Shown: positions 1,257 through 34,384 of the stretch, one piece after another
Layout of the letters: each line of letters opens with the position of its first letter
Numbering within the stretch: the stretch's first letter is position 1
Origin: Sagittula stellata E-37
Lineage (GTDB): Bacteria; Pseudomonadota; Alphaproteobacteria; Rhodobacterales; Rhodobacteraceae
Direction of reading: 5' to 3'
Assembly: GCF_039724765.1 (NCBI RefSeq)
Contig: NZ_CP155729.1
Location: forward strand, 3,171,501-3,235,500
DNA length: 64,000 nucleotides
Translations under genes and position numbers: made by a program
Notes under the pieces: model-generated
Told to the model about the DNA's origin: nothing
The model's database searches: none
The model's input: only the letters and a program-made list of their open reading frames with translations

Positions 1257-1434
1257 CGGATGGAACCTTCCGTCACCGCCCGGCACCCAAGTGACGGACC
1301 CCATTGACGGAAACGCGCACCGGCAATAATCGCCGCCACGCACGGACCCGATCCGTGAGACTCGTGCCGCCCGCCGCGTGCCCGCCCCCGACAAGGGAGA
1401 CGGGAAACAAGCGGGCCCTATGAAGTGACAAGGA

Positions 1435-2385
1435 ATGACCGGAGCTCTCTTCTCCTCCGGCGTGCCCGCGGTCGACAGCCGTGCGGGCTTTGCCGAAAAC
1501 ATGGCGCACCTGGGCGACCTGCCCGCTGCCATCTGCATCCTCGAACAGGCGCTTGAGCTGGCCCCGGACTGGGCCGCCGGCTGGTTTCGGCTGGGCGAGT
1601 ACCTGAAGGCCGCGGGCGACATCCCCGCCGCCGCCGACGCCTGGACCCGCGCGGTCGAGGCAGACCCGAAGGACCCGCTGGGTGCGGGCATCAACCGCGA
1701 CCTCGCGCGGGAGGTGCCGGTCACCGAAACCCTGCCGCCCGCCTTCGTCGAACTGCTCTTCGACCAATACGCGCCGCGCTTCGAACGCGCGCTGCGCGAC
1801 CGCCTCGTCTATCGCGGGCCGGAAGAGATTCTGGCCGCGCTGAAGACCGCCGGGCTAGGCCGCGCGGACCACGCGCTCGACCTCGGATGCGGCACAGGCC
1901 TGATGGGCGAACTGCTGCGGCCGCATGTGACACGCCTGGACGGGCTGGATCTGTCGCAGCACATGCTTCACGAGGCGGAGGCGAAAGGCGTTTACGACCT
2001 CCTCGAAAAGCAGAACATCGCCACGTTGGACCGGCGCCCGGGCCGTTACGACCTGATCGTCGCGGCGGATGTCTTCAACTACCTCGGTGCACTCGAACAG
2101 CCGGTGGCCTGGGCGGTCGACGCGCTGCGGCCCGGCGGGCTTTTCTCGTTCACCGTGGAACTTGGCGACGCGCCCGTCCTGCTGCGGGAAACCCGGCGTT
2201 TCGCCCATTCGCGCGACTATGTCGAGACGCTGCTGGCCGATGCGGGCCTGACCGTCGCCTACCTGGCAGAGGTCGTCCTGCGCGAGGATCGCGGAGAAGC
2301 TGTGCGCGGCTTGACCGTCGCCGCACGTCGCGGGATGCCCATGGACCGTGCCACCGACGGTTCGGAACTGGCCACCGCCGACTGA
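1435..2385 (+). CDS. TPR-containing class I SAM-dependent methyltransferase
   Basis: A 316-residue protein. Residues about 20-85 form a tetratricopeptide segment (LPAAICILEQALELAPDW, then GDIPAAADAWTRAVEADP), with two helical repeats of the TPR pattern. Residues about 135-290 are a Rossmann methyltransferase with motif I LDLGCGTGLMGELL and the following acidic LDGLDLS loop that holds S-adenosylmethionine. The substrate is unknown; TPR-methyltransferase fusions usually modify proteins or small metabolites. The start ATG follows AAGG at 1430-1433. The gene is convergent with pyc. No membrane segment or signal peptide is seen. Confidence 0.85.
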   Translation: MTGALFSSGVPAVDSRAGFAENMAHLGDLPAAICILEQALELAPDWAAGWFRLGEYLKAAGDIPAAADAWTRAVEADPKDPLGAGINRDLAREVPVTETLPPAFVELLFDQYAPRFERALRDRLVYRGPEEILAALKTAGLGRADHALDLGCGTGLMGELLRPHVTRLDGLDLSQHMLHEAEAKGVYDLLEKQNIATLDRRPGRYDLIVAADVFNYLGALEQPVAWAVDALRPGGLFSFTVELGDAPVLLRETRRFAHSRDYVETLLADAGLTVAYLAEVVLREDRGEAVRGLTVAARRGMPMDRATDGSELATAD

Positions 2386-2408
2386 CCGCCACGAAGGCAA
2401 AGCAAAAC

Positions 2409-2432
2409 GGCGCGAGGGTGACCCCCCGCGCC
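2409..2432. terminator. Possible stem-loop between convergent genes
   Basis: GGCGCGAGGG, TGAC loop, CCCCCGCGCC: a ten-pair stem with one A-C mismatch, between the convergent ends of the methyltransferase and pyc. There is no U-tract on either side, so the terminator role is weak inference. Confidence 0.35.
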
Positions 2433-2461
2433 CTGCCTTTCCGCCCCCCGAAGGGCCGGTT

Positions 2462-5400
2462 TCACTCCATCTCGACCAGCAGGTCCTTGGCGTCGATCTG
2501 GCCGCCAGCGGCGACATGCACCGCTTTCACCGTGCCGTCCCGTTCGGCGTGCATGCCCGATTCCATCTTCATCGCCTCGATGGTCAGCAGCAGGTCGCCG
2601 GTTTTGACCTTGTCGCCCGGCTTCACAACGATGGAGGACACCACCCCCGGCATCGGCGCGCCGATGTGGTTCGGGTTGCCGACCTCCGCCTTCGGCCGCG
2701 CGCCGCTTGCCGCCTTGGCCTTGCGGTCGGGTACGCGGATCGCGCGCGGCTGGCCGTTCAACTCGAAGAACACCCGCACCTCGCCATCGTCCTGCGTGCC
2801 GCCCACCGCCTGCAACCGGATCTCCAGCGTCTTGCCGGGGTCGATCTCGGCGGTGATCTCTTCGCCCGGCTCCATGCCGTAGAAGAAGGTCCGCGTCGGC
2901 AGCACCCGCACCGGGCCGTAGGTTTCGTGCCGCGCGGCGTAGTCGGTGAAGACCTTGGGATACATCAGGTAGCCGTTCAGGTCCTCGTCGTCGAACTCCA
3001 CGCCTTCGATGGTCTTTTCCAGCTCGGCACGCTTCTCGGAGATGTCGACCGGCGCCGCCTTCAGGCCGGGCCGCTCGGTAAAGGGTTTCTCGTCTTTCAG
3101 GATCTTCTTCTGGATCTTCTTCGGCCAGCCGCCCGGCGGCTGCCCGAGGTTGCCCTTCATCATGTCGATGACCGAATCCGGGAAGCTGAGGTCGGTCTTC
3201 GGGTCTTCCACCTCGGCACGCGTCAGACCCTGGCTGACCATCATCAGCGCCATGTCCCCCACAACCTTCGAGGACGGCGTCACCTTCACGATGTCGCCGA
3301 ACATCTGGTTCACGTCGGCATAGGTCTGGGCGACCTCGTGCCAGCGCTCTTCCAGACCCAGCGACCGCGCCTGCGCCTTCAGGTTGGTGAACTGACCGCC
3401 CGGCATCTCGTGGAGGTAGACCTCCGAGGCCGGGGCCTGCATCCCGGATTCGAACGCCGCATACTGGCCGCGCACCGCCTCCCAGTAGTTGGAGATCGCG
3501 CGGATCGCCCCCATGTCGAGGCCGGTGTCCCGCTCGGTGAAGCGCAACGCTTCGACCACCGAGCCCAGCGTCGGCTGCGATGTGTTGCCCGACAGCGCGT
3601 CCATCGCGGCATCGACACAGTCCACGCCGGCACGCGAGGCCTCCATGATCGTGGCAATCGCCGCGCCCGAGGTGTCGTGCGTGTGGAAGTGGACCGGCAG
3701 GCCGACCTCTTCCTTCAGCGTCTTCACCAGCGTGTAGGCGGCATTGGCCTTCAGCAGGCCCGCCATGTCCTTCAGGCCCAGCACGTGGGCGCCCGCGTCC
3801 CGCAGCTCCTTGGCCATGGAGACATAGTACTTCAGGTCGTACTTGGACCGGTCCGGGTCCAGCATGTCGCCGGTGTAGCAGACCGTGCCTTCGAGGATCT
3901 TGCCGCTCTCCAGAACTGCATCCATCGCGACGCGCATGTTCTCCACCCAGTTGAGCGAATCGAACACGCGGAAGACGTCGACGCCTGTCTCTGCCGCCTG
4001 CTTCACGAAGAACTGGACGACGTTGTCGGGATAGTTGGTGTAGCCCACCCCGTTCGCGCCGCGCAGCAGCATCTGCGTCAGCAGGTTGGGCATCCGGGCA
4101 CGCAGGTCCCGCAGGCGTTGCCAGGGGCATTCCTGCAGGAAGCGATAGGCCACGTCGAAGGTTGCCCCGCCCCAGCACTCCATCGAGAAGAGCTGCGGCA
4201 GGTTGTGAGCATAGGCGGGCGCCGCGCCGATCATGTCGATCGACCGCATCCGCGTGGCCAGAAGCGACTGGTGGCCGTCGCGCATCGTCGTGTCGGTGAT
4301 CAGAAGCTGCTTCTGCTCAAGCATCCAGTCGGCGACCGCCTTCGGCCCCTTCTCCTCCAGCAGCGTCTTGGTCCCCGGCGCGGGCGCGTCGGCGCGCAGC
4401 ATCGGCGGCTTTGCGGGCTTCAGGTCCGGATGCGGCATGGCGCGGCCCTGCACCTCCGGATGACCGTTCACCGTGATGTCGGCGATGTAGGTCAGCACCT
4501 TGGTGCCCCGGTCGCGGCGCTTCTGGAAGTCGAACAGCTCCGGCGTCGTGTCGATGAACTTCGTGGTGTACTGGTTGTTCAGGAACGTTGGGTGCTTCAG
4601 CAAGTTGATGACGAACTCGATGTTCGTGGTCACGCCCCGGATGCGGAATTCGCGCAGGGCGCGGTCCATCCGCTTGATCGCTTTCTCGGGCGTCGGCGCC
4701 TTGGCCGTCACCTTCACAAGCAGCGAATCGTAGAAGCGCGTGATGACCCCGCCCGCGTAGGCCGTGCCGCCGTCCAGACGGATGCCCATGCCCGTGGCCG
4801 AGCGATAGGCGGTGATGCGGCCGTAGTCGGGGATGAAGTTGTTGGTCGGATCCTCCGTGGTGATCCGGGTCTGCAACGCGTGGCCGGTCAGACGCACGTC
4901 GTACTGGCTGGCCTTGCCGGTGGCCTCGGACAGCGACTTGCCCTCAGCGATGAGGATCTGCGCCTGCACGATGTCGATGCCGGTGACTTCCTCGGTGACG
5001 GTGTGTTCCACCTGCACGCGCGGGTTCACCTCGATGAAGTAGAAAGCGCCGGTGTCCATATCCATAAGGAATTCGACCGTGCCCGCGCATTCGTAGTTCA
5101 CATGGGCGCAAATCTTGCGGCCCAGCTCGCAGATCTCCTCGCGCTGCGCCTCGCTGAGGTACGGTGCGGGTGCGCGTTCGACGACCTTCTGGTTCCGGCG
5201 CTGGACCGAACAGTCGCGTTCATAAAGGTGGTAGATGTTGCCCTGCTTGTCGCCAAGGATCTGTACCTCGACGTGACGGGCGCGGATGATCATCTTTTCA
5301 AGATAACCCTCGCCGTTGCCAAAGGCCGCCTCGGCCTCGCGCCGGCCTTCCAGCACCTTGTCCTTCAACTCCTTCGGACCTTCGATGGGGCGCATGCCGC

Positions 5401-5905
5401 GCCCGCCGCCCCCCCAGGACGCCTTCAGCATAAGCGGATAGCCGATCTCCTCGGCCTCCTTGGCAATGGCGTCGAAATCGTTGCCCAGCACATCGGTTGC
5501 CGGGATCACCGGGACGCCCGCCTCGATGGCGACCCGCCGGGCCGAGGCCTTGTCGCCAAGCGCGCGCATGGTCTCTGCCCGCGGCCCGATGAAGGTGATC
5601 CCCGCCGCGTCGCAGGCGTCGACGAAATCCGGGTTCTCCGACAGGAGGCCATAGCCCGGGTGGATCGCATCCGCGCCGCTTTCCTTGGCGACGCGAATGA
5701 TCTCATCGATCGCGAGATAGGCCTGCACCGGGCCAAGCCCTACTCCGATTCGATAGGCCTCGTCCGCCTTGAAGCGGTGAAGGCCCAGCTTGTCCTCTTC
5801 GGCAAAGACCGCGACGGTCTTCTTACCCATCTCGTTCGCCGCCCGCATGATGCGGATCGCGATTTCACCACGGTTGGCGACGAGAATTTTCTCGAAATCG
5901 GGCAT
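2462..5905 (-). CDS. pyc: Pyruvate carboxylase
   Basis: A 1147-residue single-chain biotin enzyme making oxaloacetate from pyruvate and bicarbonate with ATP (anaplerosis). An N-terminal biotin carboxylase (about 1-455) carries MIIRARHVEVQ and the FIEVNPRVQVEHTVTEEVTG active-site segment. The central carboxyltransferase (about 535-810) begins TDTTMRDGHQSLLATRMR and includes HFHTHDTSG. The C-terminal biotinyl domain has EAMKMESGM with the biotin lysine at K1113. Length and domain order match bacterial Pyc. ATG at 5905 has GAGAGGA upstream. A long ORF on the opposite strand over the same span is only its shadow. Confidence 0.98.
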   Translation of the reverse strand: MPDFEKILVANRGEIAIRIMRAANEMGKKTVAVFAEEDKLGLHRFKADEAYRIGVGLGPVQAYLAIDEIIRVAKESGADAIHPGYGLLSENPDFVDACDAAGITFIGPRAETMRALGDKASARRVAIEAGVPVIPATDVLGNDFDAIAKEAEEIGYPLMLKASWGGGGRGMRPIEGPKELKDKVLEGRREAEAAFGNGEGYLEKMIIRARHVEVQILGDKQGNIYHLYERDCSVQRRNQKVVERAPAPYLSEAQREEICELGRKICAHVNYECAGTVEFLMDMDTGAFYFIEVNPRVQVEHTVTEEVTGIDIVQAQILIAEGKSLSEATGKASQYDVRLTGHALQTRITTEDPTNNFIPDYGRITAYRSATGMGIRLDGGTAYAGGVITRFYDSLLVKVTAKAPTPEKAIKRMDRALREFRIRGVTTNIEFVINLLKHPTFLNNQYTTKFIDTTPELFDFQKRRDRGTKVLTYIADITVNGHPEVQGRAMPHPDLKPAKPPMLRADAPAPGTKTLLEEKGPKAVADWMLEQKQLLITDTTMRDGHQSLLATRMRSIDMIGAAPAYAHNLPQLFSMECWGGATFDVAYRFLQECPWQRLRDLRARMPNLLTQMLLRGANGVGYTNYPDNVVQFFVKQAAETGVDVFRVFDSLNWVENMRVAMDAVLESGKILEGTVCYTGDMLDPDRSKYDLKYYVSMAKELRDAGAHVLGLKDMAGLLKANAAYTLVKTLKEEVGLPVHFHTHDTSGAAIATIMEASRAGVDCVDAAMDALSGNTSQPTLGSVVEALRFTERDTGLDMGAIRAISNYWEAVRGQYAAFESGMQAPASEVYLHEMPGGQFTNLKAQARSLGLEERWHEVAQTYADVNQMFGDIVKVTPSSKVVGDMALMMVSQGLTRAEVEDPKTDLSFPDSVIDMMKGNLGQPPGGWPKKIQKKILKDEKPFTERPGLKAAPVDISEKRAELEKTIEGVEFDDEDLNGYLMYPKVFTDYAARHETYGPVRVLPTRTFFYGMEPGEEITAEIDPGKTLEIRLQAVGGTQDDGEVRVFFELNGQPRAIRVPDRKAKAASGARPKAEVGNPNHIGAPMPGVVSSIVVKPGDKVKTGDLLLTIEAMKMESGMHAERDGTVKAVHVAAGGQIDAKDLLVEME

Positions 5906-6102
5906 GTGTGTTGGTCCTCTCGCGCATGATTGTTGTCAGTTTGCGCAACATTATTACCTTGACGCCTTGCCGCACCGCGGCGCAAGAGGGGTTTGCAAAT
6001 TAATTTTTTGGCAAGGCCAGATTTGCAAACGCTCCGGCTTAATCCGTCATTAACGCCGACAAATTATTCGGTTGCGGAATGACCCGGGTCAAGGAGCCCA
6101 AC

Positions 6103-6579
6103 ATGTTCGACAGATCCGAGCGGCCTGCGGGCGCGCTTGCGCAAAGCCTCATGGCGCGCCCCGACTGGATGATCAGCCAACACCTCGATCAGCTCGACCG
6201 GGAGATCAGGACCCTCGGCTGTCTCACCCTGTCCCGAAAGGCATGGAAGCCCTGCACAATCGAGACTCTTGACCGGACGATCGTGCTTCGTTCCGTCGAG
6301 GACCTCGAAACCGCGATGCTGGCACAGGCCGACGACGACCACGCCCGCGGCATCGACCGCACCCTCCGCGTCGTCACCAAGGCAGAGGCGATTTCCGAAA
6401 AGCGCATCGACGGCGTTGTCATCACGGCACGCAAGATCGACGACTTCTTTCCGGCCCCTCCCATGCGGACCAACCTGCGGCTGACCCGGTGCAGCGACGA
6501 CTGGCAGGTGTCGCACATCGTCGTCCGTGTCTCGGCCGAGAGTTGGGCCTTCACCAGCCCGTTCCTGGCAGATCGCTGA
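6103..6579 (+). CDS. Hypothetical protein, 158 residues
   Basis: I do not recognise this protein. It is predicted soluble, with no signal peptide or membrane helix. The beginning is helical (QSLMARPDWMISQHLDQLDREI) and the second half is beta-rich, ending SHIVVRVSAESWAFTSPFLADR, so an NTF2-like fold is conceivable but unproven. ATG at 6103 is preferred over the in-frame ATG at 6079 because AAGGAG at 6091-6096 is correctly spaced. The 197-base region upstream, shared with divergent pyc, is clearly AT-rich (for example AAATTAATTTTTTGG) and probably holds promoters for both. Its 3' end overlaps the convergent dehydrogenase gene by 29 bases. Confidence 0.7.
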   Translation: MFDRSERPAGALAQSLMARPDWMISQHLDQLDREIRTLGCLTLSRKAWKPCTIETLDRTIVLRSVEDLETAMLAQADDDHARGIDRTLRVVTKAEAISEKRIDGVVITARKIDDFFPAPPMRTNLRLTRCSDDWQVSHIVVRVSAESWAFTSPFLADR

Positions 6580-7711
6580 GGGTCTCCGTCCGGCCACGCA
6601 GGTCCGTGGGCCGCGCCACGCCAAGCTGGCCGATGGCTGCCACAAGGTCGCGGCGCAGCATCTCGGTCAGGTGCGCCGGGCCATCTTCGCCAAGCGCGCA
6701 GACCGCGTAGTGCCAAGCGCGCCCCATCATGATGAAATCCGCGCCAAGCGCGATGCCCCGCAGCATGTCCAGCCCCGAATCGAAGCCGCTGTCGGCGATC
6801 ACCGGCAGCGTCGTGGCGGCGCGCACCTCCGGCAGCACCTCGGCCACGGCGGGGGCCGCGTCGAACTGGCGCCCGCCGTGGTTCGACACCCAGATGGCAT
6901 CGACGCCCGCCGCCTCAAGCCGCGCCGCATCGGAGGCGCGCATCACCCCCTTGACCACCAGCGGCCCGTCCCAGTGGTCCCGGATCCAGGTCACGTAATC
7001 CCAGTCCGGCGCGGTGCGCAGCAGGTAGCCCACATGCGCCGTCGGATCGCGGGTGGAAAGGTCGGTCGTGTACCGGTCGAGCGTCTTCATCCGCGGCATT
7101 CCCGCCCGCATCCGGGCCAGCGACCAGGCCGGTCTCAGGACGCATTGCGCGGCGATCCGGGGCGTCAGACGCGGCGGCTGCACCAGCCCGCCTTTCACCT
7201 GCGCCTCCCGCCGCGACGCCACCGGAACGTCGACGGTCAGCACCAGCACGCGGAACCCGCTGTCCTGCGCGCGCGCCAGCATGTCGAGGCGCACGTCGAC
7301 AGCGCGGGGCGGGTAAAGCTGGAACCAGCCCTGCCCCCCGGTCAGCGGCCCCACCTCTTCGGGCGTGGCCGTCGCCACCGTCGACAGCGTGTAGGGCAGA
7401 CCGGCCTGCGCCGCCCCCCGGGCCAGCATCGCCTCCGCGTCCGGCCACAACAGGCCCGACTGCCCGACCGGCGCCACCCCGAAAGGCAGCGGATGCGGCA
7501 CGCCCAGCAATTCCGTGGCCAGGTCCGGCGTCACCTCTCCGTCAAGGATCGACGGCACAAAGCCGATCCGGTCCAGCGCCGCACGGTTGCGCCGGGGGGT
7601 CGCGCCCGTCCCGGTCGCCGTGTCGAGGTAAGCCCAGGCAAAACGTGGCACGCGTCGCCTGGCCCGCTCTCTCAGGTCGGCGACGGTCATGTATCTCTGC
7701 TGCGGTTCCAT
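6551..7711 (-). CDS. FMN-dependent alpha-hydroxy-acid dehydrogenase/oxidase (LldD-like)
   Basis: A 386-residue TIM-barrel flavoprotein of the lactate/glycolate/mandelate oxidase family. It has the catalytic histidine in SNHGGRQFD (H278, with the following arginine R281), an N-terminal MTVADLRERARRRVPRFAW helix, PFGVAPVG and STVATATPEE FMN-binding segments, and ALGADFIMMGR at the end. The loop normally reading DGGxRxG is DSGFDSG here, so a usual arginine is replaced. The substrate (L-lactate or another 2-hydroxy acid) cannot be set from sequence. Start at 7711 gives normal length; ATG at 7690 is the alternative. The 3' end overlaps the convergent hypothetical gene. Confidence 0.88.
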   Translation of the reverse strand: MEPQQRYMTVADLRERARRRVPRFAWAYLDTATGTGATPRRNRAALDRIGFVPSILDGEVTPDLATELLGVPHPLPFGVAPVGQSGLLWPDAEAMLARGAAQAGLPYTLSTVATATPEEVGPLTGGQGWFQLYPPRAVDVRLDMLARAQDSGFRVLVLTVDVPVASRREAQVKGGLVQPPRLTPRIAAQCVLRPAWSLARMRAGMPRMKTLDRYTTDLSTRDPTAHVGYLLRTAPDWDYVTWIRDHWDGPLVVKGVMRASDAARLEAAGVDAIWVSNHGGRQFDAAPAVAEVLPEVRAATTLPVIADSGFDSGLDMLRGIALGADFIMMGRAWHYAVCALGEDGPAHLTEMLRRDLVAAIGQLGVARPTDLRGRTETLSDLPGTGW

Positions 7712-7837
7712 GTCCCATGTCTCGCCCGAAATCCGCGCGTCCGCCAGACCCCGCCGCATTCTCCGAAAATGTTCAGTTTTTTTTAAGCGCGATAGCCGAG
7801 GCTCTCCGCCAAGCGTTCCCGAACCCCGGAGTAGACC

Positions 7838-8878
7838 ATGCACGCGATGCTGTTGGACAGTGACATCCCCCGCCTGGACCGCCTCCAGATCGCGTTTCTG
7901 GAAGCGGGCATCCACGTGACCGGCTCCGGCAGCCTCTCTGTCGCCGAGTGCTGCCTGCGCCGGGCCGTGGCCGACGTGCTGCTGGTCGATCTGGACACGG
8001 CGGGCGCCTACCTGCCTGAGATCGTGACACTGGCAGAGCGGCGCAATCCCCGGCTGGTCACGCTTTTCCTGTCGGACGCCGTCTCTGCCGCCACCGACCG
8101 CTGGTCCGACCGCTTCGCATCGCTGCACTGCGTGCTCGAAGGCGTGTCGGAGGCCGGGCTGGTGGCCCGCATGGCCCGCGCCTCGCTTGCCGGTCGCGCG
8201 CGGTGTTCGGAGGTCGCGCAGAAGGCCGCCGCAGAGGTCCGCGCCGCCGCCGACCAGAACGCCCGCCACCGGGCAGAGGCCGCCAGGTCTCCGGTCGCGA
8301 CGCCCCAGGCCGCCGTCCCGCCGCAGCCCGCCGCAACCACGCAGCACGACATGCCGCACGCCGTGCAAGAGGCCCGTCATGACCCATCGGTCGCCGCGCG
8401 CGAGGCACACCTGAAGCAGCAGACCGCCGCCATGCGGACCACCCTCAGTGCGCCGCCGCGGCCCGATGCCCTATCCGCGCAGCGGTCCGCAGCCCCATCT
8501 GAAGACCTCCAAAGGACCGCGCCCCCCGTCGGCCCCGCGCTCAAGCCCAATGAGTATCCCGCGATTCGCATGCATCCCGCGCTGGCGGCCCAACGCGCCG
8601 CCGAGGCACAGACCCGCACCGCCGCCGCCGACAAAGCCCCTCAGGAACAGGCCCCGAAACCTGCGGCCCAGCCTGCGCTTGCCTCGATCCAGCCACTGCG
8701 GGCCCAGACCGCAGCCGCCGCCGTTCAGCCGCTGCGGCCGCAAACTGCCCCCACGCCCGCCCCCGCACATGCCCCTGCACAGGCCCCCGTAGCGGCGCCC
8801 GAAGAGACACCGCGCCCCGTCTTCCAGACTTCGCGGCGCAGGCTCGGCGTGACCTCCGGCGCGCTGATGTCCGCCTGA
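7838..8878 (+). CDS. Degenerate receiver-like protein with long Ala/Pro-rich tail
   Basis: A 346-residue protein. Residues about 1-110 look like a response-regulator receiver fold: MLLDSD at the start supplies the acidic pocket, LLVDLD near residues 47-52 sits where the phospho-acceptor aspartate is expected, and LVTLFLSDAVS lies where the conserved Ser/Thr strand falls. No output domain follows. Residues about 125-330 are a low-complexity Ala/Pro/Gln-rich tail, probably disordered, with recurring QPLRPQTA-like units, and the end is RRRLGVTSGALMSA. It is divergent from the hydroxy-acid dehydrogenase; a T8 tract and AT-rich bases at 7770-7790 probably mark the promoter. The function is unknown; signalling scaffold is inference. 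Confidence 0.72.
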   Translation: MHAMLLDSDIPRLDRLQIAFLEAGIHVTGSGSLSVAECCLRRAVADVLLVDLDTAGAYLPEIVTLAERRNPRLVTLFLSDAVSAATDRWSDRFASLHCVLEGVSEAGLVARMARASLAGRARCSEVAQKAAAEVRAAADQNARHRAEAARSPVATPQAAVPPQPAATTQHDMPHAVQEARHDPSVAAREAHLKQQTAAMRTTLSAPPRPDALSAQRSAAPSEDLQRTAPPVGPALKPNEYPAIRMHPALAAQRAAEAQTRTAAADKAPQEQAPKPAAQPALASIQPLRAQTAAAAVQPLRPQTAPTPAPAHAPAQAPVAAPEETPRPVFQTSRRRLGVTSGALMSA

Positions 8879-22868: not shown

Positions 22869-23915
22869 CTACTCCGCCGGCGCTCCCGCCGGTAAGGGAA
22901 CGTCAATGCTTTCGTGCAGACGTTCCGACGGGTCCTGCCCCAGGACCCTGCGGCGCCGGTTCAGGAACAGCTTGCCAAAGCCCTGCCACGTGCCGACCGA
23001 AGGCGCATCCACATCGCAGGGAAACCTGTCCCGCCAGCCCGGCGGCAGCGCCACGGCGCAGGCTTCCAGCCGTTCCAGCATCCAGACCAGCGGTATGTTC
23101 GCCAGGGGGCGCGCCGCCTGGAAACTGCCGATCTGCCCACCGACGTCGCCATGTGTGCCGCGGAACCAGACCTGCTCCATCACGCCCCTCCAGTCCGGCG
23201 GGCGCTCCCACATCACCGGCGTGAAGGTCACCCGCGTCTCGTCCAGCGCCAGCGCGTGGAACCCGTGCCGCACCGAATTGCCAAGCGCGTGGTTGTGAAA
23301 GGCGTGGCTCGGCTCCGTCACCCGCCAGAGCAGCGGCAGTTGCAGCCCCAGCGCCTTCACCGTGTCCCATACGCCCACCATCTCCACCAGCGTCACATCG
23401 TGGCAATGCAGCCGTGCGAAGTCGTCCGCCGTCTCGCTGTCGGGCGCGTATTGGTACAGCCGGTACGCTTGCGTGATGTTCCGTTCCGTGGCGAACTCTG
23501 GCCGCAGCAGCCCCACGCGGTCGATGATCCCCGCCAACGACCGTGCGGCATAGGCGCCGCGCGAAAAGCCCAGAAGGAAAATGCGGTCTCCCACCCGGTA
23601 GCGCGATGCGAGGTAGCCGTAGGCGCGACGGATCTGCCGGTTGATCCCCCGGCCCGACACCACGTCCCAGGTCGACATCCAGGCTTCCCACTGTATGCCC
23701 GCCTCGTAGTAAAGCGAGGTCCGCCCGACTTCTTTCAAGAGCTTGTAGGTCAGGCCCGCGTTGCTCTCCATCCCCGGTTCGAGGGTGGAAGCCGTGCCGT
23801 CCAGGATGATGATGTGATCGCGCGGCCCGCGCCGCGGCTCATACGGGGTGTAGCCGGTTGCAAAGCGCTTGCGGACCCAGCCAAGGACGGTGTTGGCGAT
23901 CTGTGTGCCGATCAT
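22869..23915 (-). CDS. DUF2235 alpha/beta-hydrolase-like protein
   Basis: A 348-residue protein of the DUF2235 family (predicted alpha/beta hydrolases; some relatives are Tle1-type phospholipases). HIIILDGTASTLEPG begins the fold, IFLLGFSRGAYAARSLAG carries the GxSxG nucleophile serine, MVGVWDTVKALG and VWFRGTHGDVGGQIG hold the expected acid and histidine. No signal peptide or transmembrane helix. No type VI secretion genes are nearby, so an effector role is unsupported. The terminator lies 139 bases after the stop. Confidence 0.85.
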   Translation of the reverse strand: MIGTQIANTVLGWVRKRFATGYTPYEPRRGPRDHIIILDGTASTLEPGMESNAGLTYKLLKEVGRTSLYYEAGIQWEAWMSTWDVVSGRGINRQIRRAYGYLASRYRVGDRIFLLGFSRGAYAARSLAGIIDRVGLLRPEFATERNITQAYRLYQYAPDSETADDFARLHCHDVTLVEMVGVWDTVKALGLQLPLLWRVTEPSHAFHNHALGNSVRHGFHALALDETRVTFTPVMWERPPDWRGVMEQVWFRGTHGDVGGQIGSFQAARPLANIPLVWMLERLEACAVALPPGWRDRFPCDVDAPSVGTWQGFGKLFLNRRRRVLGQDPSERLHESIDVPLPAGAPAE

Positions 23916-27597: not shown

Positions 27598-28035
27598 ATG
27601 CAGATCGACGAAACCGACCGCAAACTGATCGCCGCGCTGGCCGAGAACGCCCGCGCCCCCGTGGCGGAACTGGCCCGCAGGCTGGACCTTGCCCGGACGA
27701 CGGTGCAGGCGCGCATCGACCGACTTCTCGCCAGCGGTGCCATTGCAGGTTTCACCCTCAGGCGCGGTCCCGGCCTGCGCCCGCCCCTGCGCGCCACCGT
27801 GCTGATTTCCCTGGAACCGAACGAGGCCGCCGCCGTTCTGTCGCGCCTGAAGGCCATGCCGGAGGTCGAGACGGTGCACACCACATCGGGCCGCTTCGAT
27901 TTCCTTGTCAGCCTGACCGCCGGCACGACCGAGGCGCTGGACATCAGCCTCGACAAGATCGTCGAGGCGAAGGGTGTGCGCAGTTCGGAAAGCCTGATCC
28001 ACCTCTCGACCAAGATCGACCGGGTCGGGCGCTGA
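27598..28035 (+). CDS. Lrp/AsnC family transcriptional regulator
   Basis: A 145-residue regulator: HTH in residues 3-55 (IDETDRKLIAALAENARAPV, then LDLARTTVQARIDRLLASG) and a RAM ligand domain ending in STKIDRVGR. ATG at 27598 is preferred over an upstream in-frame start because GAGGA lies just before it and the protein then begins with the usual Lrp N-terminus. It is divergent from ornithine decarboxylase, which suggests control of that gene by an amino acid or polyamine. Confidence 0.9.
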   Translation: MQIDETDRKLIAALAENARAPVAELARRLDLARTTVQARIDRLLASGAIAGFTLRRGPGLRPPLRATVLISLEPNEAAAVLSRLKAMPEVETVHTTSGRFDFLVSLTAGTTEALDISLDKIVEAKGVRSSESLIHLSTKIDRVGR

Positions 28036-28081
28036 GCGCACGAAGATGCCCGGGACAATGCCCGCCGCGATTGAGACGTGA

Positions 28082-28109
28082 TTGACAGAATTGCGACATC
28101 GCATACGAT
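28082..28109 (+). promoter_or_regulatory. Candidate sigma-70 promoter of the CHAT-protease cluster
   Basis: TTGACA (28082-28087), 16-base spacer, TACGAT (28104-28109; four of six matches to TATAAT), in a locally AT-rich 70-base stretch ahead of the cluster. Assignment is inference from motif and position. Confidence 0.5.
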
Positions 28110-28147
28110 GATCGTGTATTTTTTAACGAATATTGAGGAGCGCGCGC

Positions 28148-29479
28148 ATGCCCGGTTCGCCCGAAGCGCCGATTTTCACCCATCAGGGTTTTCTCGGTCA
28201 AACGGTCCCGTTTCACGCCATCACCTACGACAAGAACGGGGTCTGCACCTCTCCGGCGACACGCGACGCGGTCCTGCGCCTGATCCGCGATGGCGGTCAC
28301 TCCGACACGATCCTGTTCAGCCATGGCTGGAACAACGACTGGGACGATGCCATGCGCCTCTACCGCGCGTTCATGGAAGGCGTCTGCGCTATGGCAGACC
28401 AGCGCGGTGACGTCCTGCCAGGCGGTTTGAAGCCCCTGTTTCTTGGCGTGTCCTGGCCCAGTGCCGCCCTGCTCTGGCCGTGGGAAGAGACACCCGATCT
28501 GGCCGCCGGCACACCCGAACCGGTCGTAGAAAGCGCCGATGCGGAGCTTCTGCGCGAGGACATGGACCCCGACGAGGCAGAGGCGCTGACCGCTTTCCTC
28601 GCGGGGAAGGACACCATCACCGGGGCCGAGCTGTCGCAACTGTCGGAATTGCTCGCTCCGCAGTTCGCCCATCCCGACGAGGACGAGACGGAAGCCTCGG
28701 CGCAGTTCACCGCGCGCGACCTCGAACACACTTTCCGTTCCGCGGATATCCTGGCGGAAGGGCCAGAGGATGACGATGGCGGCTTCGACAGCGGCGGTAC
28801 GATCGACGACGCGCCAACCGATGGCGTGCAGGCCGCCGGGGGGCCTTTCTCCGGTGTCTTCGGCCTGCGAAAGGTGCTCAGGATGGCGACGGTCCTAAAG
28901 ATGAAGGACCGCGGCGGTGTCGTGGGCGCCAACGGCGTGGCCGAACTGTTGCAACGCCTGCTAGGAGAGACGGGCACCCGCCTTCACATCGTCGGGCATT
29001 CCTACGGTGCAAAGGTGACGATGACGGCGCTTAGCCGGGTGCAGGCCCCGCGCGCCGTGGAATCCGTGCTGCTTCTCCAGCCCGCCGTGAACCACCTCGC
29101 CTTCGCTCAGGATGTGGAGGGGCGGCCCGGCGGCTTCCGCAAGGTCCTAGAGCGGTGTCGCAAGCCGGTACTGACAACCCGGTCGAAGAACGACATCCCG
29201 CTCAGGCACGTCTTCCACCTGGCCGTACGCCGCCGCAGCGACCTGGGCGAGATGCAGTTCGCGTCGGGCGTCAGTCAGTTCGCGGCAATGGGCGGTTACG
29301 GGCCGCATGAACTCGCGCCCGGCGAACTGCTGGAGGTCACCCTTCCCGACCGGGGCATCACGTATCCCGACCTCTCCGGACACGCGGTGATCGACCTGAA
29401 CGGCGACGGGCGCATCACCGGGCATTCCGACGTCACCAACCCTTACACCTTCTGGGCGATGCTCCAGAACCTGCGCTGA
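28148..29479 (+). CDS. Alpha/beta-hydrolase-like protein, first gene of CHAT cluster
   Basis: A 443-residue protein. An N-terminal strand and oxyanion region TILFSHGWNNDWDDAMRLY lies near 54-73, and a nucleophile elbow LHIVGHSYGAKV near 279-290 (Ser285) identifies a serine hydrolase/lipase fold. Between them lies an acidic, partly disordered insert (about 115-235). Residues 416-428 read DLNGDGRITGHSD, resembling an EF-hand/dockerin calcium loop, with serine at the usual position-12 acid. No signal peptide or transmembrane helix. GAGGAG seven bases upstream fixes ATG 28148. The next gene starts nine bases after the stop. Confidence 0.78.
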   Translation: MPGSPEAPIFTHQGFLGQTVPFHAITYDKNGVCTSPATRDAVLRLIRDGGHSDTILFSHGWNNDWDDAMRLYRAFMEGVCAMADQRGDVLPGGLKPLFLGVSWPSAALLWPWEETPDLAAGTPEPVVESADAELLREDMDPDEAEALTAFLAGKDTITGAELSQLSELLAPQFAHPDEDETEASAQFTARDLEHTFRSADILAEGPEDDDGGFDSGGTIDDAPTDGVQAAGGPFSGVFGLRKVLRMATVLKMKDRGGVVGANGVAELLQRLLGETGTRLHIVGHSYGAKVTMTALSRVQAPRAVESVLLLQPAVNHLAFAQDVEGRPGGFRKVLERCRKPVLTTRSKNDIPLRHVFHLAVRRRSDLGEMQFASGVSQFAAMGGYGPHELAPGELLEVTLPDRGITYPDLSGHAVIDLNGDGRITGHSDVTNPYTFWAMLQNLR

Positions 29480-29488
29480 AAGGACCCC

Positions 29489-30907
29489 ATGGCGACCCTC
29501 GTCCGCGCCTCCGAACACCTGCTCGCGCTCCGCTGCACGGTAGAGATGTCGCGGAGCGGGGCGTTGCTGGCCGCCGAACCCTATCGGGGCGAGGAAGCGC
29601 TGGCCGAACCGCTGCGCCTGCCGCTGACCGACCTCGGGTTTCCCGCCACGGTCCGAGACCGGCAGAACGGTTTCAGACCAAAGGTGCCGGGCGATCTGCG
29701 CGGGATGTTCGCTTGGTTGGGCGAACAGGCCGATGGACCGGAGGCGATCTGGATTCAACTGGCCTACGGCGCAGAAACCCTGGGTGCCTATCCGTGGGAA
29801 GAAATGTTCTCCGACACCTGCGGCCGGGCGATCCTGCGGGTGCCGAACTTCGTCCGTCCGGGCTACGCCCCGGCGTCCGACCGGCCCATCGCGATCTGTG
29901 CGGCCGCGCCCAGAGCCAAGGGTAGCGAAGATTGGGGAGCGCCGTTGCTGGATCTGCTAGACAGCCTTCCGCATTTCGAGAGACGCGATGTCGTGCTGTT
30001 CCACGGCGCTGACATGGTGCCCGAGGAGGTGCGAGACCTCGACCACCTTGGCCAGAGGTTTCCCCAGCTTCGCTTTCACCGCGCAGCCCTGCCCGAGAAA
30101 GCGGATGCACCGGACCGCGCACGGACCATCCCGCAGTCCGCCGAGGTGAGCAATCCTTGGCTGACGTGGATGGCCGACACGCTTGGCCCGGAGGGTGCAC
30201 ATGCCGTCCACTTCCTCTGTCCCGGCTACGCCAGTAACGCCCATGGCGCGCTGGCCCTGCCGGAAAGCCCGCTCTCGGACGGAGATTCGCAATGGTCCCG
30301 CTTCGTGGGGGCGCAGGAACTCGCGCGCTTCTGCGACACCATCGGCGCGCAGCTTGTCACCCTGACCGCCCTCGGCGACCCTCGGTGGTCCACCGGGCTT
30401 CGGCTGCTTCTGAACGAGATGTCGTGGCGGCGTCCCGGCCCCTTCCTGCTGAACTTGCGCCAACGGGATCGGCAGCTTGCGCCGGCCCTCCACGCCCTGG
30501 CAGGGGAGCCCTTTTATCCCGACCCGGCACCCGGGCTGGTGTTCTCTGTCCATCCGAAGGCCGTGGCCGCTGCCGAACCCAAAGCTGCCTTCCAGGCCAT
30601 CACAAGAGGGGTGCGGACCGCCACCGTCGCCCCGGGCGAGCCGCTGTCGGAAAGTGCGCTCGACGATGTGATGCTGCCCGCACCGTCGGGCACGCTGGAC
30701 GACGGTTTGCGCGCAGCCTTCGAAACGCCGGATCTTGCCACCTCCGTGCCACCGCTTCCCGCCGACCTTCAGCGCACGCTTGACCAGATCGGCAGCGCGC
30801 GGCCGAAATCGCGCACGCAGGAGGCGCGGGACCAGGGGGCGCTACGCGCGCTGGACTTCATCTCGAAGCTGACGGGCGGCGATTTTGGCGGGGGAACGGG
30901 CCGATGA
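29489..30907 (+). CDS. CHAT-like protein lacking both catalytic residues
   Basis: A 472-residue protein whose layout parallels the CHAT protease encoded next. YPWEEMF (101-107) mirrors the LPWEALR block, and AVHFLCPGYASN (239-250) mirrors AHLFCHGYAGTE but with proline P245 where the catalytic histidine should be. QLVTLTALGD (288-297) mirrors WLVVLNACSLAD but with leucine L295 where the catalytic cysteine should be. It is therefore probably an inactive pseudoprotease: a regulator, substrate or scaffold. The C-terminal 100 residues look disordered or helical. Its stop overlaps the next ATG (ATGA). The alignment was made by eye. Confidence 0.72.
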   Translation: MATLVRASEHLLALRCTVEMSRSGALLAAEPYRGEEALAEPLRLPLTDLGFPATVRDRQNGFRPKVPGDLRGMFAWLGEQADGPEAIWIQLAYGAETLGAYPWEEMFSDTCGRAILRVPNFVRPGYAPASDRPIAICAAAPRAKGSEDWGAPLLDLLDSLPHFERRDVVLFHGADMVPEEVRDLDHLGQRFPQLRFHRAALPEKADAPDRARTIPQSAEVSNPWLTWMADTLGPEGAHAVHFLCPGYASNAHGALALPESPLSDGDSQWSRFVGAQELARFCDTIGAQLVTLTALGDPRWSTGLRLLLNEMSWRRPGPFLLNLRQRDRQLAPALHALAGEPFYPDPAPGLVFSVHPKAVAAAEPKAAFQAITRGVRTATVAPGEPLSESALDDVMLPAPSGTLDDGLRAAFETPDLATSVPPLPADLQRTLDQIGSARPKSRTQEARDQGALRALDFISKLTGGDFGGGTGR

Positions 30908-32334
30908 GTGTCACCCGCATCCGGTTCGAGCGTGCCATCGGTCACGACATGACCGAGTACACCCAGTTCCACATCGAGGCGCCCGGCGTCCTCCTGAGCG
31001 ATGCCCCCCGCCCGCCACTACAGATCGACGCCCACAAGGCGGTGTTCGACGCCTTCGATGCCGCCGGACCGGACGACGTGGTCCGCGCGGCGGGCGATGC
31101 GCTCTGGTCCTGCCTCTCGGCCCACCGCAACACCAAGGAGGCGTTCCGCCCGATCCTGCGCAAAGACGCGACGAAGGGGGCATTGCGGCTGGCCTTCTCC
31201 GACCTCGCGGGCGACGCAAAAGCCCTGCCATGGGAGGCCCTGCGAGAGACGCAGGCCGGGTTCCTCTGCTTCGACCGCCGCATTCCGATCCTGCGCGAGG
31301 TAGAGACGGAAACCGCCCCGGACCTGCAGATTGCCAACACCGACACGCTGCGCTTTCTCGCCGTGATCGGCGCACGCGGCGATGACGGACAGGGAGAATG
31401 GGACGAGATCCGGAAGGCTCTGCAGTCTCTGACCGGTTCGGTCAGGTTTCAGGCGCTGATCCTCGCCTCCCGGCAGGAACTCGAGGACGACATCAACGCG
31501 CTCGGCGTTCCTGCGATCCGCGCCGAAACCATACCGCATGGCACCAGCGCCCTCGTGGCACGGATCGAGCGCTTTGGTCCCCATGTGGCGCACTTGTTCT
31601 GCCACGGCTACGCAGGCACCGAATCCGTGCTTGAGGTCGAGGACGGGGGCGTCAACTACGGCTGCACGAAACCGACCTGGCTGATGCGCGGCGACCTGCT
31701 GCATGCGCTTTCGGCCAAGGCGTGGCTCGTGGTGCTGAACGCCTGTTCGCTGGCGGATGTGGGCGATGCGGAGGACACCGGGCCGGGCACGCCCGAAACC
31801 GCCAGCCTGTGCGAGGAACTCGTCCAGTCCGGGATACCGGTGGTGGTGGGGATGCGCGGGCCGATGCTGGCACGATACACCCATGCCTTCGGCGGTACTT
31901 TCCATGAACGGGCGTTGCGGGCCGTTGGACAGGCCATCGCCCAAGGCGGCATGGAGCTCGATTTGGGGGCCTGTTTCTCCGACGCCTGCCGCGCCATTCT
32001 CGCCGACCCGCCGTTGCCCCCGATGCTGGCCGCCGCCCGCATCCGCGACTGGACCTTCCCGGTCATGACGCTCCGCAGCGGGCCGCTCGCGATCAAGGTC
32101 ATCGGCCATGGCGACGCCCCCGGCGGCGCGTCCCCCGACGTGGACGAAGACACCCTTCTGGCCCGCGAAGAGGCCATCGGCGAACGGGAGGTTCTGGCCC
32201 GCATTCTGGATAGCCGGGGCGACGTGCTGCCGGACGAGGCCGTGCGCGAGGTCCGCGCACGCATCGCGGAACTCGAGGCGCAACTGGGCACCCGGACCCG
32301 GACCGAAGAACACACAGCCTTCGACGAGGCATGA
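30904..32334 (+). CDS. CHAT-domain (caspase-like) protease
   Basis: A 476-residue clan CD peptidase. An N-terminal half (1-130) with ALPWEALRETQAGFLCFDRR leads to the CHAT domain. The catalytic histidine is H234 in HVAHLFCHGYAG and the catalytic cysteine C281 in WLVVLNACSLAD, the classic CHAT dyad. ELVQSGIPVVVGMRGPM is the conserved following strand. The last 60 residues form a charged helix, probably a coiled coil (EREVLARILDSRG, then REVRARIAELEAQLG). CHAT proteases in bacteria cleave partner proteins in defence or cell-death pathways. Cytoplasmic; coupled to both neighbours. Confidence 0.85.
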   Translation: MSVTRIRFERAIGHDMTEYTQFHIEAPGVLLSDAPRPPLQIDAHKAVFDAFDAAGPDDVVRAAGDALWSCLSAHRNTKEAFRPILRKDATKGALRLAFSDLAGDAKALPWEALRETQAGFLCFDRRIPILREVETETAPDLQIANTDTLRFLAVIGARGDDGQGEWDEIRKALQSLTGSVRFQALILASRQELEDDINALGVPAIRAETIPHGTSALVARIERFGPHVAHLFCHGYAGTESVLEVEDGGVNYGCTKPTWLMRGDLLHALSAKAWLVVLNACSLADVGDAEDTGPGTPETASLCEELVQSGIPVVVGMRGPMLARYTHAFGGTFHERALRAVGQAIAQGGMELDLGACFSDACRAILADPPLPPMLAAARIRDWTFPVMTLRSGPLAIKVIGHGDAPGGASPDVDEDTLLAREEAIGEREVLARILDSRGDVLPDEAVREVRARIAELEAQLGTRTRTEEHTAFDEA

Positions 32335-32347
32335 CCGGAGACGCGCC

Positions 32348-33733
32348 ATGACCCTGCCCGACACGCTCCAATTGAACGCATGGACCGGTGGGGAGAACAC
32401 CGGCGCGGTCGACCCGGACCTGAAGCGCCATCTGCTGGGTCTGCCCTTCGCCGGCCAGAGCCGGAGGCTTCCGGCCGCCCCCGTCCCGCAGGACCGATGG
32501 CAGGACCCGAAGGTCGGATGGGGTGTGATCCTTCCCGAGAACCGCGAACTGACCCGCGCGGAGCTGGCCTCGGCCATGGATGCCCCGGCACCGATCCGGG
32601 ACTTGGTGGCACGACGGGGCGATGCGCCGGTCTTCCGGGTCGGCAAGGACTGGCAACCCGGCACCCTGCGTCGCTACGCGCCGGATGGCTCGGCCATGGA
32701 CATCGACATTCATGCCGGGCGCATCGGCACTGCGCCGGGGCACATCCCGCGTTACCTGTTGATCGTGGGCAGCCCGGCGCAGATTCCCTGGGACGTGCAG
32801 TACGACCTGCATCTGACGTTTTTCACCGGGCGCCTCGACCTCGACGACGCCGGGTTGGAGCATTACGTCGACGCCCTGTTGTCCGACTGGCAAGGCAGCC
32901 CGATGATGAAGGCGAACACGCTGTCCTGGACGGTCGATCACGGCGGCGGAGACATCACCACCCTGATGCGCAAGACAATCGGCGACCCGATCCACGACCG
33001 CTTTGCCACCGACCCGGTGCCAGAGCTGGTCGCGGGCGCACATGTCCTGCGTGGGCCTCAAGCCACCCACGCCGCGCTTTCCGCAGCTATCGAAGCCCGG
33101 CATCCGGCCCTGATCGTCTCGACGAGCCATGGCGACACCGCGCCGCTCGATGACGTCGATCTGATGCGGAGCAATCTGGGCCTGCCGATCGACGCGGACC
33201 TGCGCCGGCTCGATCCCGCGCAACTGACCGGCAATGCGGCGCCCTCCGGCGCGATCTGGTTTGCGCAGGCCTGCTGTTCGGCCGGTAGCTCTGCGCGCAC
33301 CGCCTATGACGGTGTCCTGAAGGCCGGGACCGCCGCCGACCGGATCGTGCGGGCCGTGGCCGGATGCGGGGAGACCACGGCACCCCTGCCCCGCGCGCTC
33401 CTTGGGTCACCGAAGCCCCTGCGCGCCTTTGTCGGCCACGTGGAGCCGACCTTCGACTGGTCGCTCAGGAACCGGAAGACCGGGCAGTACGTGACAAGCT
33501 CGATCCTCGACTGCTTTCACACATGCCTGTTCACCGGCCAGCCCATCGGCATGGCGCTGGACCGGGTCCGCGCGACCGGCGCATCCTTCCGCAACAGCCG
33601 TGACATTGCCGCACGCCGCCTTCTGGACAACCGCGACGAAAGCCAGCTTGGCGACATTCTTGCCGCGAAGCTGATCGCTGACGACTGGCGGTCCATCGTT
33701 CTGCTGGGGGACCCGACGTGCCGGGTGTGGTGA
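32348..33733 (+). CDS. Second caspase-fold (CHAT/C25-like) peptidase
   Basis: A 461-residue protein. IPRYLLIVGSPAQIPWDVQY (about 133-152) resembles the first strand-loop of gingipain/caspase-fold peptidases. A histidine follows a strand in LIVSTSHGDTAPLDD (H261) and cysteines follow the next in AIWFAQACCSAGSS (C309/C310), the spacing of a clan CD His-Cys dyad. The first 130 residues are not recognised. The end ADDWRSIVLLGDPTCRVW is the typical LLGDP strand of such folds. CGGAGA seven bases upstream supports ATG 32348 over the longer reading frame. It is the last gene of the cluster and converges on yciB. Confidence 0.72.
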   Translation: MTLPDTLQLNAWTGGENTGAVDPDLKRHLLGLPFAGQSRRLPAAPVPQDRWQDPKVGWGVILPENRELTRAELASAMDAPAPIRDLVARRGDAPVFRVGKDWQPGTLRRYAPDGSAMDIDIHAGRIGTAPGHIPRYLLIVGSPAQIPWDVQYDLHLTFFTGRLDLDDAGLEHYVDALLSDWQGSPMMKANTLSWTVDHGGGDITTLMRKTIGDPIHDRFATDPVPELVAGAHVLRGPQATHAALSAAIEARHPALIVSTSHGDTAPLDDVDLMRSNLGLPIDADLRRLDPAQLTGNAAPSGAIWFAQACCSAGSSARTAYDGVLKAGTAADRIVRAVAGCGETTAPLPRALLGSPKPLRAFVGHVEPTFDWSLRNRKTGQYVTSSILDCFHTCLFTGQPIGMALDRVRATGASFRNSRDIAARRLLDNRDESQLGDILAAKLIADDWRSIVLLGDPTCRVW

Positions 33734-33751
33734 GCCTGCGGCAGGGTGCGC

Positions 33752-34384
33752 CTACTCCGCCGGTTTGTCTGCCTCGGCCTCGTCCTCGATGGCGTAGGTC
33801 TTGAACAGGCTGCTCTGCGTCATGAAGAAGGCAAAGACCGCCGCTGTCAGGCCGAAGGTCTTGAAATAGACCCATGTTTCCGTCGACATGGTGCGCCAGA
33901 TCACCTCGTTCAGCACGGCCAGTCCGAAGAACATCAGCATCACGCGGCGGGTCAGGATCATCCACCCTTCCTGCTTGAGCGGCATTAGTCCCTCCATGAC
34001 CGCACGCAACCAGCTTTCGCCGCGCAAGAGCCCGATGCCCAAGGCAGTGCCGAACAGCAGGTAGATCAGCGTCGGCTTCATCTTGAAGAACCGGTCGTCG
34101 TTCAGCCAGACGGACAGGCCCCCGAAGATCACGATCAACACCGCCGTCACCAGTTGCATCCTGCTGAGATGCCTGGTCAGCTTCCACAGAAGGCCGGTGG
34201 CGATCAGGAAGACCGGGATGAAGCCGGCGGTGACCACGATGAACCCCTCGTACTCCGTCCCGCCGATGGTGAAGATCCGGTCCTTCAGCGCGAGGTAAGC
34301 GGCGAAGAAGGCCAGCAGAGGCCCGAACTCCAGCGCGCTCTTCAGCATCGGGTTGATCGGGCGCGGCCCGGCTTGGTCGGTCAT
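33752..34384 (-). CDS. yciB: Inner-membrane septation protein A (YciB/IspZ)
   Basis: A 210-residue polytopic membrane protein with five or six helices: ALEFGPLLAFFAAYLAL, FIVVTAGFIPVFLIATGLLW and LVTAVLIVIFGGLSVWLND. It has the family blocks DDRFFKMKPTLIYLLFGTAL and LNEVIWRTMSTETWVYFKTFGL. YciB homologues affect cell-envelope integrity and septation. A Glu/Ala-rich tail ends the protein. It is convergent with the CHAT cluster, and the DMT-transporter gene lies 31 bases upstream on the same strand, with ftsY further up. Confidence 0.92.
   Translation of the reverse strand: MTDQAGPRPINPMLKSALEFGPLLAFFAAYLALKDRIFTIGGTEYEGFIVVTAGFIPVFLIATGLLWKLTRHLSRMQLVTAVLIVIFGGLSVWLNDDRFFKMKPTLIYLLFGTALGIGLLRGESWLRAVMEGLMPLKQEGWMILTRRVMLMFFGLAVLNEVIWRTMSTETWVYFKTFGLTAAVFAFFMTQSSLFKTYAIEDEAEADKPAE

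Follow-up and report, generated by a model that had tools for sequence, protein, structure and literature searches.

What would a bacterium do with four small, tightly packed genes, two encoding caspase-like proteases, one a dead relative of such a protease and one a lipase-like hydrolase? The question is raised by positions 28148-33733 of the window, the whole stretch of 64,000 nucleotides of Sagittula stellata E-37 analysed here. A previous reading of this DNA from its letters alone (the sequence-only reading) had described these genes as a caspase-like protease module and suggested that they form a self-contained effector cascade. The four genes are indeed a real, widespread unit, and this unit is probably a proteolytic self-destruct or defence switch. 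Our preferred explanation, to which we give about even odds (roughly 0.5), is a hydrolase gated by a protease, with a CHAT/pseudo-CHAT pair as initiator, carried in a horizontally spread intracellular conflict cassette. The features are as follows:

28148-29479, + strand: gene 1, alpha/beta hydrolase (DUF900 class), 443 residues
29489-30907, + strand: gene 2, predicted CHAT-fold pseudoprotease, 472 residues
30904-32334, + strand: gene 3, CHAT protease with intact dyad H234/C281, 476 residues
32348-33733, + strand: gene 4, predicted gingipain-fold (C25-like) cysteine protease with H261, C309 and a QACC motif, 461 residues
28023-33782, no strand: the whole inserted cassette, from blastn against same-genus genomes; boundaries approximate

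Four genes that travel together

The genes are co-directional, and the open reading frames give the same junctions (9 bases, a 4-base overlap and 13 bases) that the sequence-only reading had reported. The same four genes were called independently by a codon-usage gene caller written for this analysis. The motifs noted earlier, GHSYG in gene 1 and the HG...C dyads in genes 3 and 4, are all seen in the translations.

Co-conservation of the four genes was sought in genome neighbourhoods. A scan with gene 4 as query and one genome per species yielded 42 loci, spread over Pseudomonadota, Actinomycetota, Chloroflexota and Gemmatimonadota; because gene 4 was the query, it is present at all of them by construction. 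The complete set, in one order and on one strand, is present at 29 of the 42 (gene 4 is split in the records of L022 and L039, which were counted as present and left out of the identity and tree statistics), so that the proposed grouping is upheld across four phyla. Four loci have genes 2-3-4 without gene 1 (L005, L006, L030 and L042), four have genes 1 and 4 without genes 2 and 3 (L017, L024, L027 and L034), and at four more gene 4 is the only member present (L037, L038 and the fragmentary L040 and L043). The L015 locus is cut by a contig end, and gene 1 of that genome lies on another contig. Overlaps of 4 bases are found at many junctions across the loci, and at 70 bits every flanking family is confined to 3 or fewer of the 42. 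In the protein searches about 8000 candidates were scored each time, the best 120 being listed.

Plasmid records were also opened: 4 of the 6 with a gene 4 relative and 12 of the 25 with a gene 1 relative. Of the four opened for gene 4, the plasmids L044, L045 and L046 have the complete module, and L047 has a divergent hydrolase-C25 pair. That the genes are merely chance neighbours is a reading for which nothing speaks and to which we give practically no credence. The locus census already refutes it, with 29 ordered sets over four phyla, and the distance matrices of the four genes, built from pairwise identities, correlate at 0.70-0.84 (Mantel p 0.001 for each of the six pairs).

Intact and lost active sites

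Only two of the four proteins match Pfam above its curated cut-offs, gene 1 to DUF900 (23.7 bits, cut-off 20.5) and gene 3 to CHAT (43.8 bits, cut-off 24). Genes 2 and 4 of the window have no Pfam match at an expectation value (E) of 1, and none of the four proteins has an NCBIfam match above cut-off.

Gene 3 probably encodes an active CHAT protease, as had been proposed; besides the Pfam match, its His-Cys dyad is intact in 35 of 35 copies and its profile matches the solved SAVED-CHAT structure 8tl0 (E 1.5e-6). In gene 4 the His-Cys pair is intact in 39 of 39 copies, and the nearest solved folds to its predicted structure are those of gingipain and separase, both of which cut proteins directly. 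The earlier label of CHAT/C25-like thus agrees with a predicted gingipain fold bearing a His-Cys dyad. Since the window's gene 4 has no Pfam C25 match, the modelled protein is filed here as C25-like and not as C25. Genes 3 and 4 were also considered as close paralogues, which a weak profile comparison (7.5% probability) did not show.

The predicted model of gene 2 (predicted local distance difference test score, pLDDT, 82, with low values at residues 363-420) has its best structural alignments with chains of the CHAT fold, DdvA at 12.5 and SAVED-CHAT at 11.4. A comparison of its profile with that of gene 3 gives a match of 97.3% probability across 230 columns; Foldseek alone on the model gave nothing below E 0.001. 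In this alignment the positions of the catalytic His and Cys are taken by P245 and L295 in the window copy. A complete dyad is found in none of 34 copies: the His is kept in 10 and the Cys in one (L026), never both, and Pro occupies the Cys position in 24. Searching by sequence with gene 2 turned up only 3 homologues, and consequently its alignment was drawn mostly from syntenic loci. Judged by model and profile, gene 2 is a CHAT-fold pseudoprotease outside the active CHAT proteases, as the sequence-only reading had supposed. Compared with its same-genus counterpart, gene 2 has a ratio of nonsynonymous to synonymous substitution rates (dN/dS) of 0.205, which indicates that this dead protein is being kept; across the four genes the ratio is 0.071-0.205, indicating purifying selection on all of them.

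In gene 1 the triad S285, D349 and H426, together with H59 of an HGWN motif (residues 59-62), is invariant in 34 of 34 copies. An insert at residues ~120-230 interrupts the fold ahead of the catalytic serine; it is present in all 34 copies at 99-120 residues, poorly conserved and 14-27% acidic. The gene 1 profile has two Protein Data Bank matches with E under 0.1, both set aside as chance-level.

Kyte-Doolittle means over 19 residues peak at 0.96-1.46 in the four window proteins, which show no transmembrane-like hydrophobic segment. Across the aligned copies, a value of 1.9 is exceeded only by a single gene 1 row (of 34) and a single gene 3 row (of 35). All four proteins are probably cytoplasmic.

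A clean insertion

Within the genus of the window, the module is present in 2 of 4 genomes and absent from the other 2, which have empty sites. The second copy (genome G003) lies at the same site and is 87% identical over 12 kb. In one genome without the module (G001) blastn similarity ends at 28022 and resumes at 33800, with 46 bases between; in the other (G002) it ends at 28022 and resumes at 33783, the 509 bases between having no blastn match to this stretch of the window. Because these two genomes lack the block, the four genes are the entire insertion, without integrase or transposase. The interpretation offered by the sequence-only reading is supported in part.

The module is rare: of 394 genomes of the same family it is found in 2, and likewise in 2 of 398 from the same phylum, the window's own genome being counted both times. 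Relatives of gene 4 are present on 6 plasmid records, one only 26% identical. In the gene 4 tree bacterial classes are mixed and Bradyrhizobium copies appear in three separate places, a pattern that fits horizontal transfer and does not prove it. No gene 4 relative was found in phage records or viral contigs, and the four proteins have no PHROGs match at E 0.01; a phage-borne origin is therefore not supported.

How the cassette might work

The analysis shows the module, its boundaries, which active sites are intact or lost, the folds predicted for genes 2 and 4 and the placing of hydrolase beside protease genes; a sequence of events can be proposed from there. Gene 1 would be the effector, a lipase-like hydrolase held inactive as a zymogen by its acidic insert. 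A partner protease, most simply gene 4, would cut the insert and switch the hydrolase on, with damage likely to fall on membrane lipids. The active CHAT of gene 3 and the dead CHAT of gene 2 would form a fast-evolving sensor-initiator that activates gene 4, in which gene 2 might act as an allosteric partner or a decoy. Such a role for a dead protease has a counterpart in cFLIP, the partner of caspase-8. From these features we infer not only the zymogen gating, the order of the cascade and the lipid substrate but also a trigger and an anti-phage purpose.

This reading is favoured by comparison with Canu, a system protective against phage T4 whose caspase complex converts a gated pro-nuclease; its description names active-site-blocking insertions and co-evolution with a protease as hallmarks of further pairs (PMC12799240). 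Genes 1 and 4 show outward signs of both, an insert and a neighbouring protease, and the protease-gated hydrolase is therefore the reading that we prefer.

Divergent relatives of gene 1 on plasmids (25-29% identity) show the same arrangement. All 8 that were aligned have the triad, as well as a stretch of 101-129 residues (taken with slightly wider limits) that corresponds to the insert. A protease gene adjoins the hydrolase on the same strand in 8 of 9 loci opened: an S8 subtilase in five, a C25-like protease in two and a CHAT protease in one. The S8 gene lies directly upstream of the hydrolase by 9-13 bases (L072, L075, L077, L078 and L079; identified by Pfam in L072, L078 and L079 and by record annotation in L075 and L077), and the C25-like gene (L047 and L073) or CHAT gene (L074) lies directly downstream. 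The string on a Nostoc plasmid (L073, 7956-17092), consisting of hydrolase, C25-like peptidase, CHAT and CHAT, with both CHAT proteins very large, looks like a cyanobacterial version of the same set. On the Sinorhizobium terangae plasmid (L047) the hydrolase-C25 pair faces a 1595-residue AAA protein and a CHAT-AAA protein, with UvrD-helicase and PD-(D/E)XK nuclease genes nearby. In L034 (Chloroflexales) genes 1 and 4 come after a gene for a C11 clostripain, next to HSP70 and propeller genes.

The four genes have not evolved at the same pace. Over 28 complete sets including the window, mean pairwise identity is 39% for gene 1, 24% for gene 2, 27% for gene 3 and 43% for gene 4; genes 2 and 3 thus diverge fastest, gene 4 is the most conserved, and the identity of gene 1 exceeds that of genes 2 and 3 in every pair. 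In the gene 4 tree, three loci with only genes 1 and 4 are sister to complete modules with strong support (L017 with L041, L024 with L018 and L027 with L012). Most simply, L017, L024 and L027 would represent three losses of genes 2 and 3 with the pair kept.

The proteases themselves could instead be the executioners, gene 3 and/or gene 4 cutting host or invader proteins, with the hydrolase a regulator or secondary enzyme that, for example, removes an acyl group or processes a signal. The four loci that lack only gene 1, the conservation of gene 4 and the direct cutting of proteins by the enzymes whose folds it most resembles all suit this alternative. However, the hydrolase triad is invariant, gene 1 stays beside gene 4 in the four loci without the CHAT pair, and the hydrolase family keeps its place as the class of the adjoining protease varies. 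On balance we regard executioner proteases as unlikely, though deserving of some weight.

Several observations count against a gated hydrolase as the point of the cassette. The insert of gene 1 could be an ordinary lid. One of the nine divergent loci opened (L076) has no recognised protease beside the hydrolase. Where the locus has no gene 1, a search of the rest of the genome did not find it either, in 5 of 5 cases (L005, L006, L030, L037 and L038; profile search at E 1e-10, in genomes that are partly metagenome-assembled, L042 being outside the search), so that gene 1 would seem not always to be needed. A papain-family (Peptidase_C1) gene replaces gene 1 upstream of genes 2-3-4 in L030 (5067-6113) and L042 (5125-6120). 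In L027 a DDE transposase gene separates genes 1 and 4, so the loss of genes 2 and 3 there may be decay rather than a working pair. Finally, known defence genes are few around the loci. A PADLOC scan of flanking proteins (E 1e-15; 239 proteins, 132 + 107, from 40 of the 42 loci, L040 and L043 giving none; the nearest four of at least 120 residues on each side, those over 1200 dropped) gave scattered matches, with 25 of 32 matching families listed for the first of the two flank sets; these matches are taken to speak neither for nor against enrichment.

Surroundings of the cassette and of its relatives

Three further features adjoin the genes:

28082-28109, + strand: candidate sigma-70-type promoter, TTGACA-16-TACGAT, from a consensus scan
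27598-28035: Lrp/AsnC regulator gene, left neighbour, named by Pfam
33752-34384, - strand: septation protein A gene, right neighbour, named by Pfam

The single candidate promoter that had been placed ahead of the four genes is seen at this site. A consensus scan of 27900-34000 on both strands gives 2 sites against a mean of 0.5 in shuffled sequence; in the same-genus copy TTGACA is kept and the second hexamer only partly. Among the eight flanking proteins scanned with Pfam are also products of decarboxylase and FtsY-type genes. A second serine hydrolase gene, with a catalytic domain like that of the type VI secretion system phospholipase Tle1 (22869-23915, - strand, E 5.7e-60), is located beyond the insertion, at ~4 kb from the cassette.

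The sequence-only reading did not recognise the unit as a named system, and none of its four proteins matches a PADLOC 2.0.0 family at E 1. Its link to known defence genes is weak: co-localisation with them, which the sequence-only reading had proposed to check, is seen in single loci, set against flank matches that are scattered overall. These loci touch VMAP-C, Shango-type, DUF1156/DUF499 and helicase-nuclease genes, the last two of which we take to be defence-related. The one clear flanking system is Shango, with one member each of SngA and SngB, a pair that its TerB domains probably place in L037.

In L037 (Bradyrhizobium nitroreducens) a gap of 39 bases separates gene 4 from a downstream string encoding a hydrolase, a caspase-VMAP-C protein and an AAA ATPase, a neighbourhood that we count in favour of the gated-hydrolase reading. 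The hydrolase is LCAT-like, the ATPase weakly matches a MoxR model, and a large receiver-GAF protein has no vWA match; the gene content suggests a mixed conflict locus. Over 1881-19355 of L037, a TerB_N/TerB_C gene stands near gene 4 and this string, which there includes a receiver-GAF-acylphosphatase protein. In L038 (Cellulomonas humilata, 1053-8639) the gene 4 relative is divergent from a string of a subtilase, two CHAT proteins and a TPR protein, whose C-terminal FHIPEP-like domain is reminiscent of captured cellular domains in VMAP effectors. In L027 (Bradyrhizobium sp. Oc8, 3404-6369) a weakly caspase C14-like gene overlaps by 4 bases the gene for a 606-residue protein ending in ribosomal protein S5 domains, and this pair is directly upstream of genes 1 and 4.

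Such surroundings bear on a further possibility, that the module serves stress, proteostasis or peptide processing and has no conflict role. The nature of the cassette's neighbours in the window agrees with this, as do the ordinary Pfam families that are commonest in the flanks (a tally of one of the two flank sets), the scatter of PADLOC matches there and the lack of any PADLOC match in the cassette. The rare and patchy occurrence, the clean insertion with its empty sites, the plasmid-borne relatives of gene 4 and the single loci that touch conflict genes argue the other way, and we consider a non-conflict module unlikely, to the same degree as executioner proteases.

Relation to known systems

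Among the closest parallels are the MoxR-vWA-VMAP ternary systems, for which a conflict role is predicted. Kaur et al. 2020 (PMC7159879) report that next to a caspase-bearing VMAP protein an alpha/beta hydrolase is always encoded, a second precedent for the preferred reading; they also report that inactive forms make up ~70% of the caspase domains that occupy the effector position of vWA proteins. The cassette is alike in combining caspase-like proteins, an inactive one among them, with an alpha/beta hydrolase and in its predicted conflict role. It differs in consisting of separate small genes with an extra gingipain-fold protease, and its four proteins and the eight flanking ones have no match to MoxR, vWA or VMAP-C, the string that marks a ternary system. 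The cassette could be a MoxR-free derivative of such systems that relies on NTPase sensors encoded elsewhere in the genome. The shared ingredients (PMC7159879) and the position of gene 4 beside the VMAP-C string of L037 would suit a derivative of this kind, but a four-gene insertion free of all three matches makes it very improbable. The LCAT-like hydrolase of that string is unlike the cassette hydrolase and is unmatched by the gene 1 profile.

Canu (CanABC) likewise joins a caspase-family protease, complexed with a second protein, to a partner enzyme bearing active-site-blocking insertions, and such protease-enzyme pairs are said to co-evolve and move (PMC12799240). Its effector is a nuclease of the metallo-beta-lactamase fold, whereas the effector candidate here is a serine hydrolase, and the cassette has two predicted caspase-fold proteases with intact dyads plus a CHAT pseudoprotease. 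None of the four proteins has a metallo-beta-lactamase or immunoglobulin-like (Ig) match at E 1; the caspase with an Ig-like domain, CanB and the pro-nuclease that define Canu are thus not what the cassette contains.

Other relatives share less. Two caspase-fold proteases are reportedly used in series by the SAVED-CHAT type III-B CRISPR cascade, a finding ascribed to Steens et al. in 2024. The match of the gene 3 profile to 8tl0 recalls that system; no SAVED match is present in the four proteins, no CRISPR-like repeat series was found at 18000-44000, and the search for Cas proteins covered the four cassette and eight flanking proteins only. Unlike Craspase, with TPR-CHAT/Csx29 of type III-E CRISPR, the cassette has no TPR or CRISPR-effector match in its four proteins. 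Unlike the gingipains (C25), gene 4 has no Pfam match or hydrophobic segment and is probably cytoplasmic. Borvo, an anti-phage system, also has a CHAT protease domain (PMC10952713), whereas the cassette is multi-gene and matches no PADLOC model.

More broadly, there may be a general class of protease-gated serine hydrolases, the lipase counterpart of gated nuclease-protease pairs, in which one hydrolase family with an inhibitory insert is coupled to C25-like, S8 subtilase or CHAT proteases. In this cassette it would be wired to a CHAT/pseudo-CHAT initiator as a bacterial three-step caspase-like death cascade. We put forward this wider proposal tentatively, as possible and short of even odds.

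Bacterial caspase-like proteases have so far been placed in CRISPR, gasdermin, NLR, Thoeris and Canu systems (PMC12799240). Full-text literature searches, outside which most subscription papers fell, gave no description of the four-gene set; in the literature searched we found neither the compact unit, its gingipain-fold member nor a CHAT pseudoprotease conserved beside an active partner, nor exchangeable protease classes beside one hydrolase family. The folds themselves and the association of caspase with hydrolase are already known. The cassette thus resembles the VMAP and Canu systems and belongs to neither: it is a compact, portable unit in which an initiator-like pair, including a conserved dead protease, is joined to a second protease and a lipase-like effector. 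Because the unit is so compact, the logic of initiator, pseudoprotease and executioner can be tested with four small proteins that look soluble.

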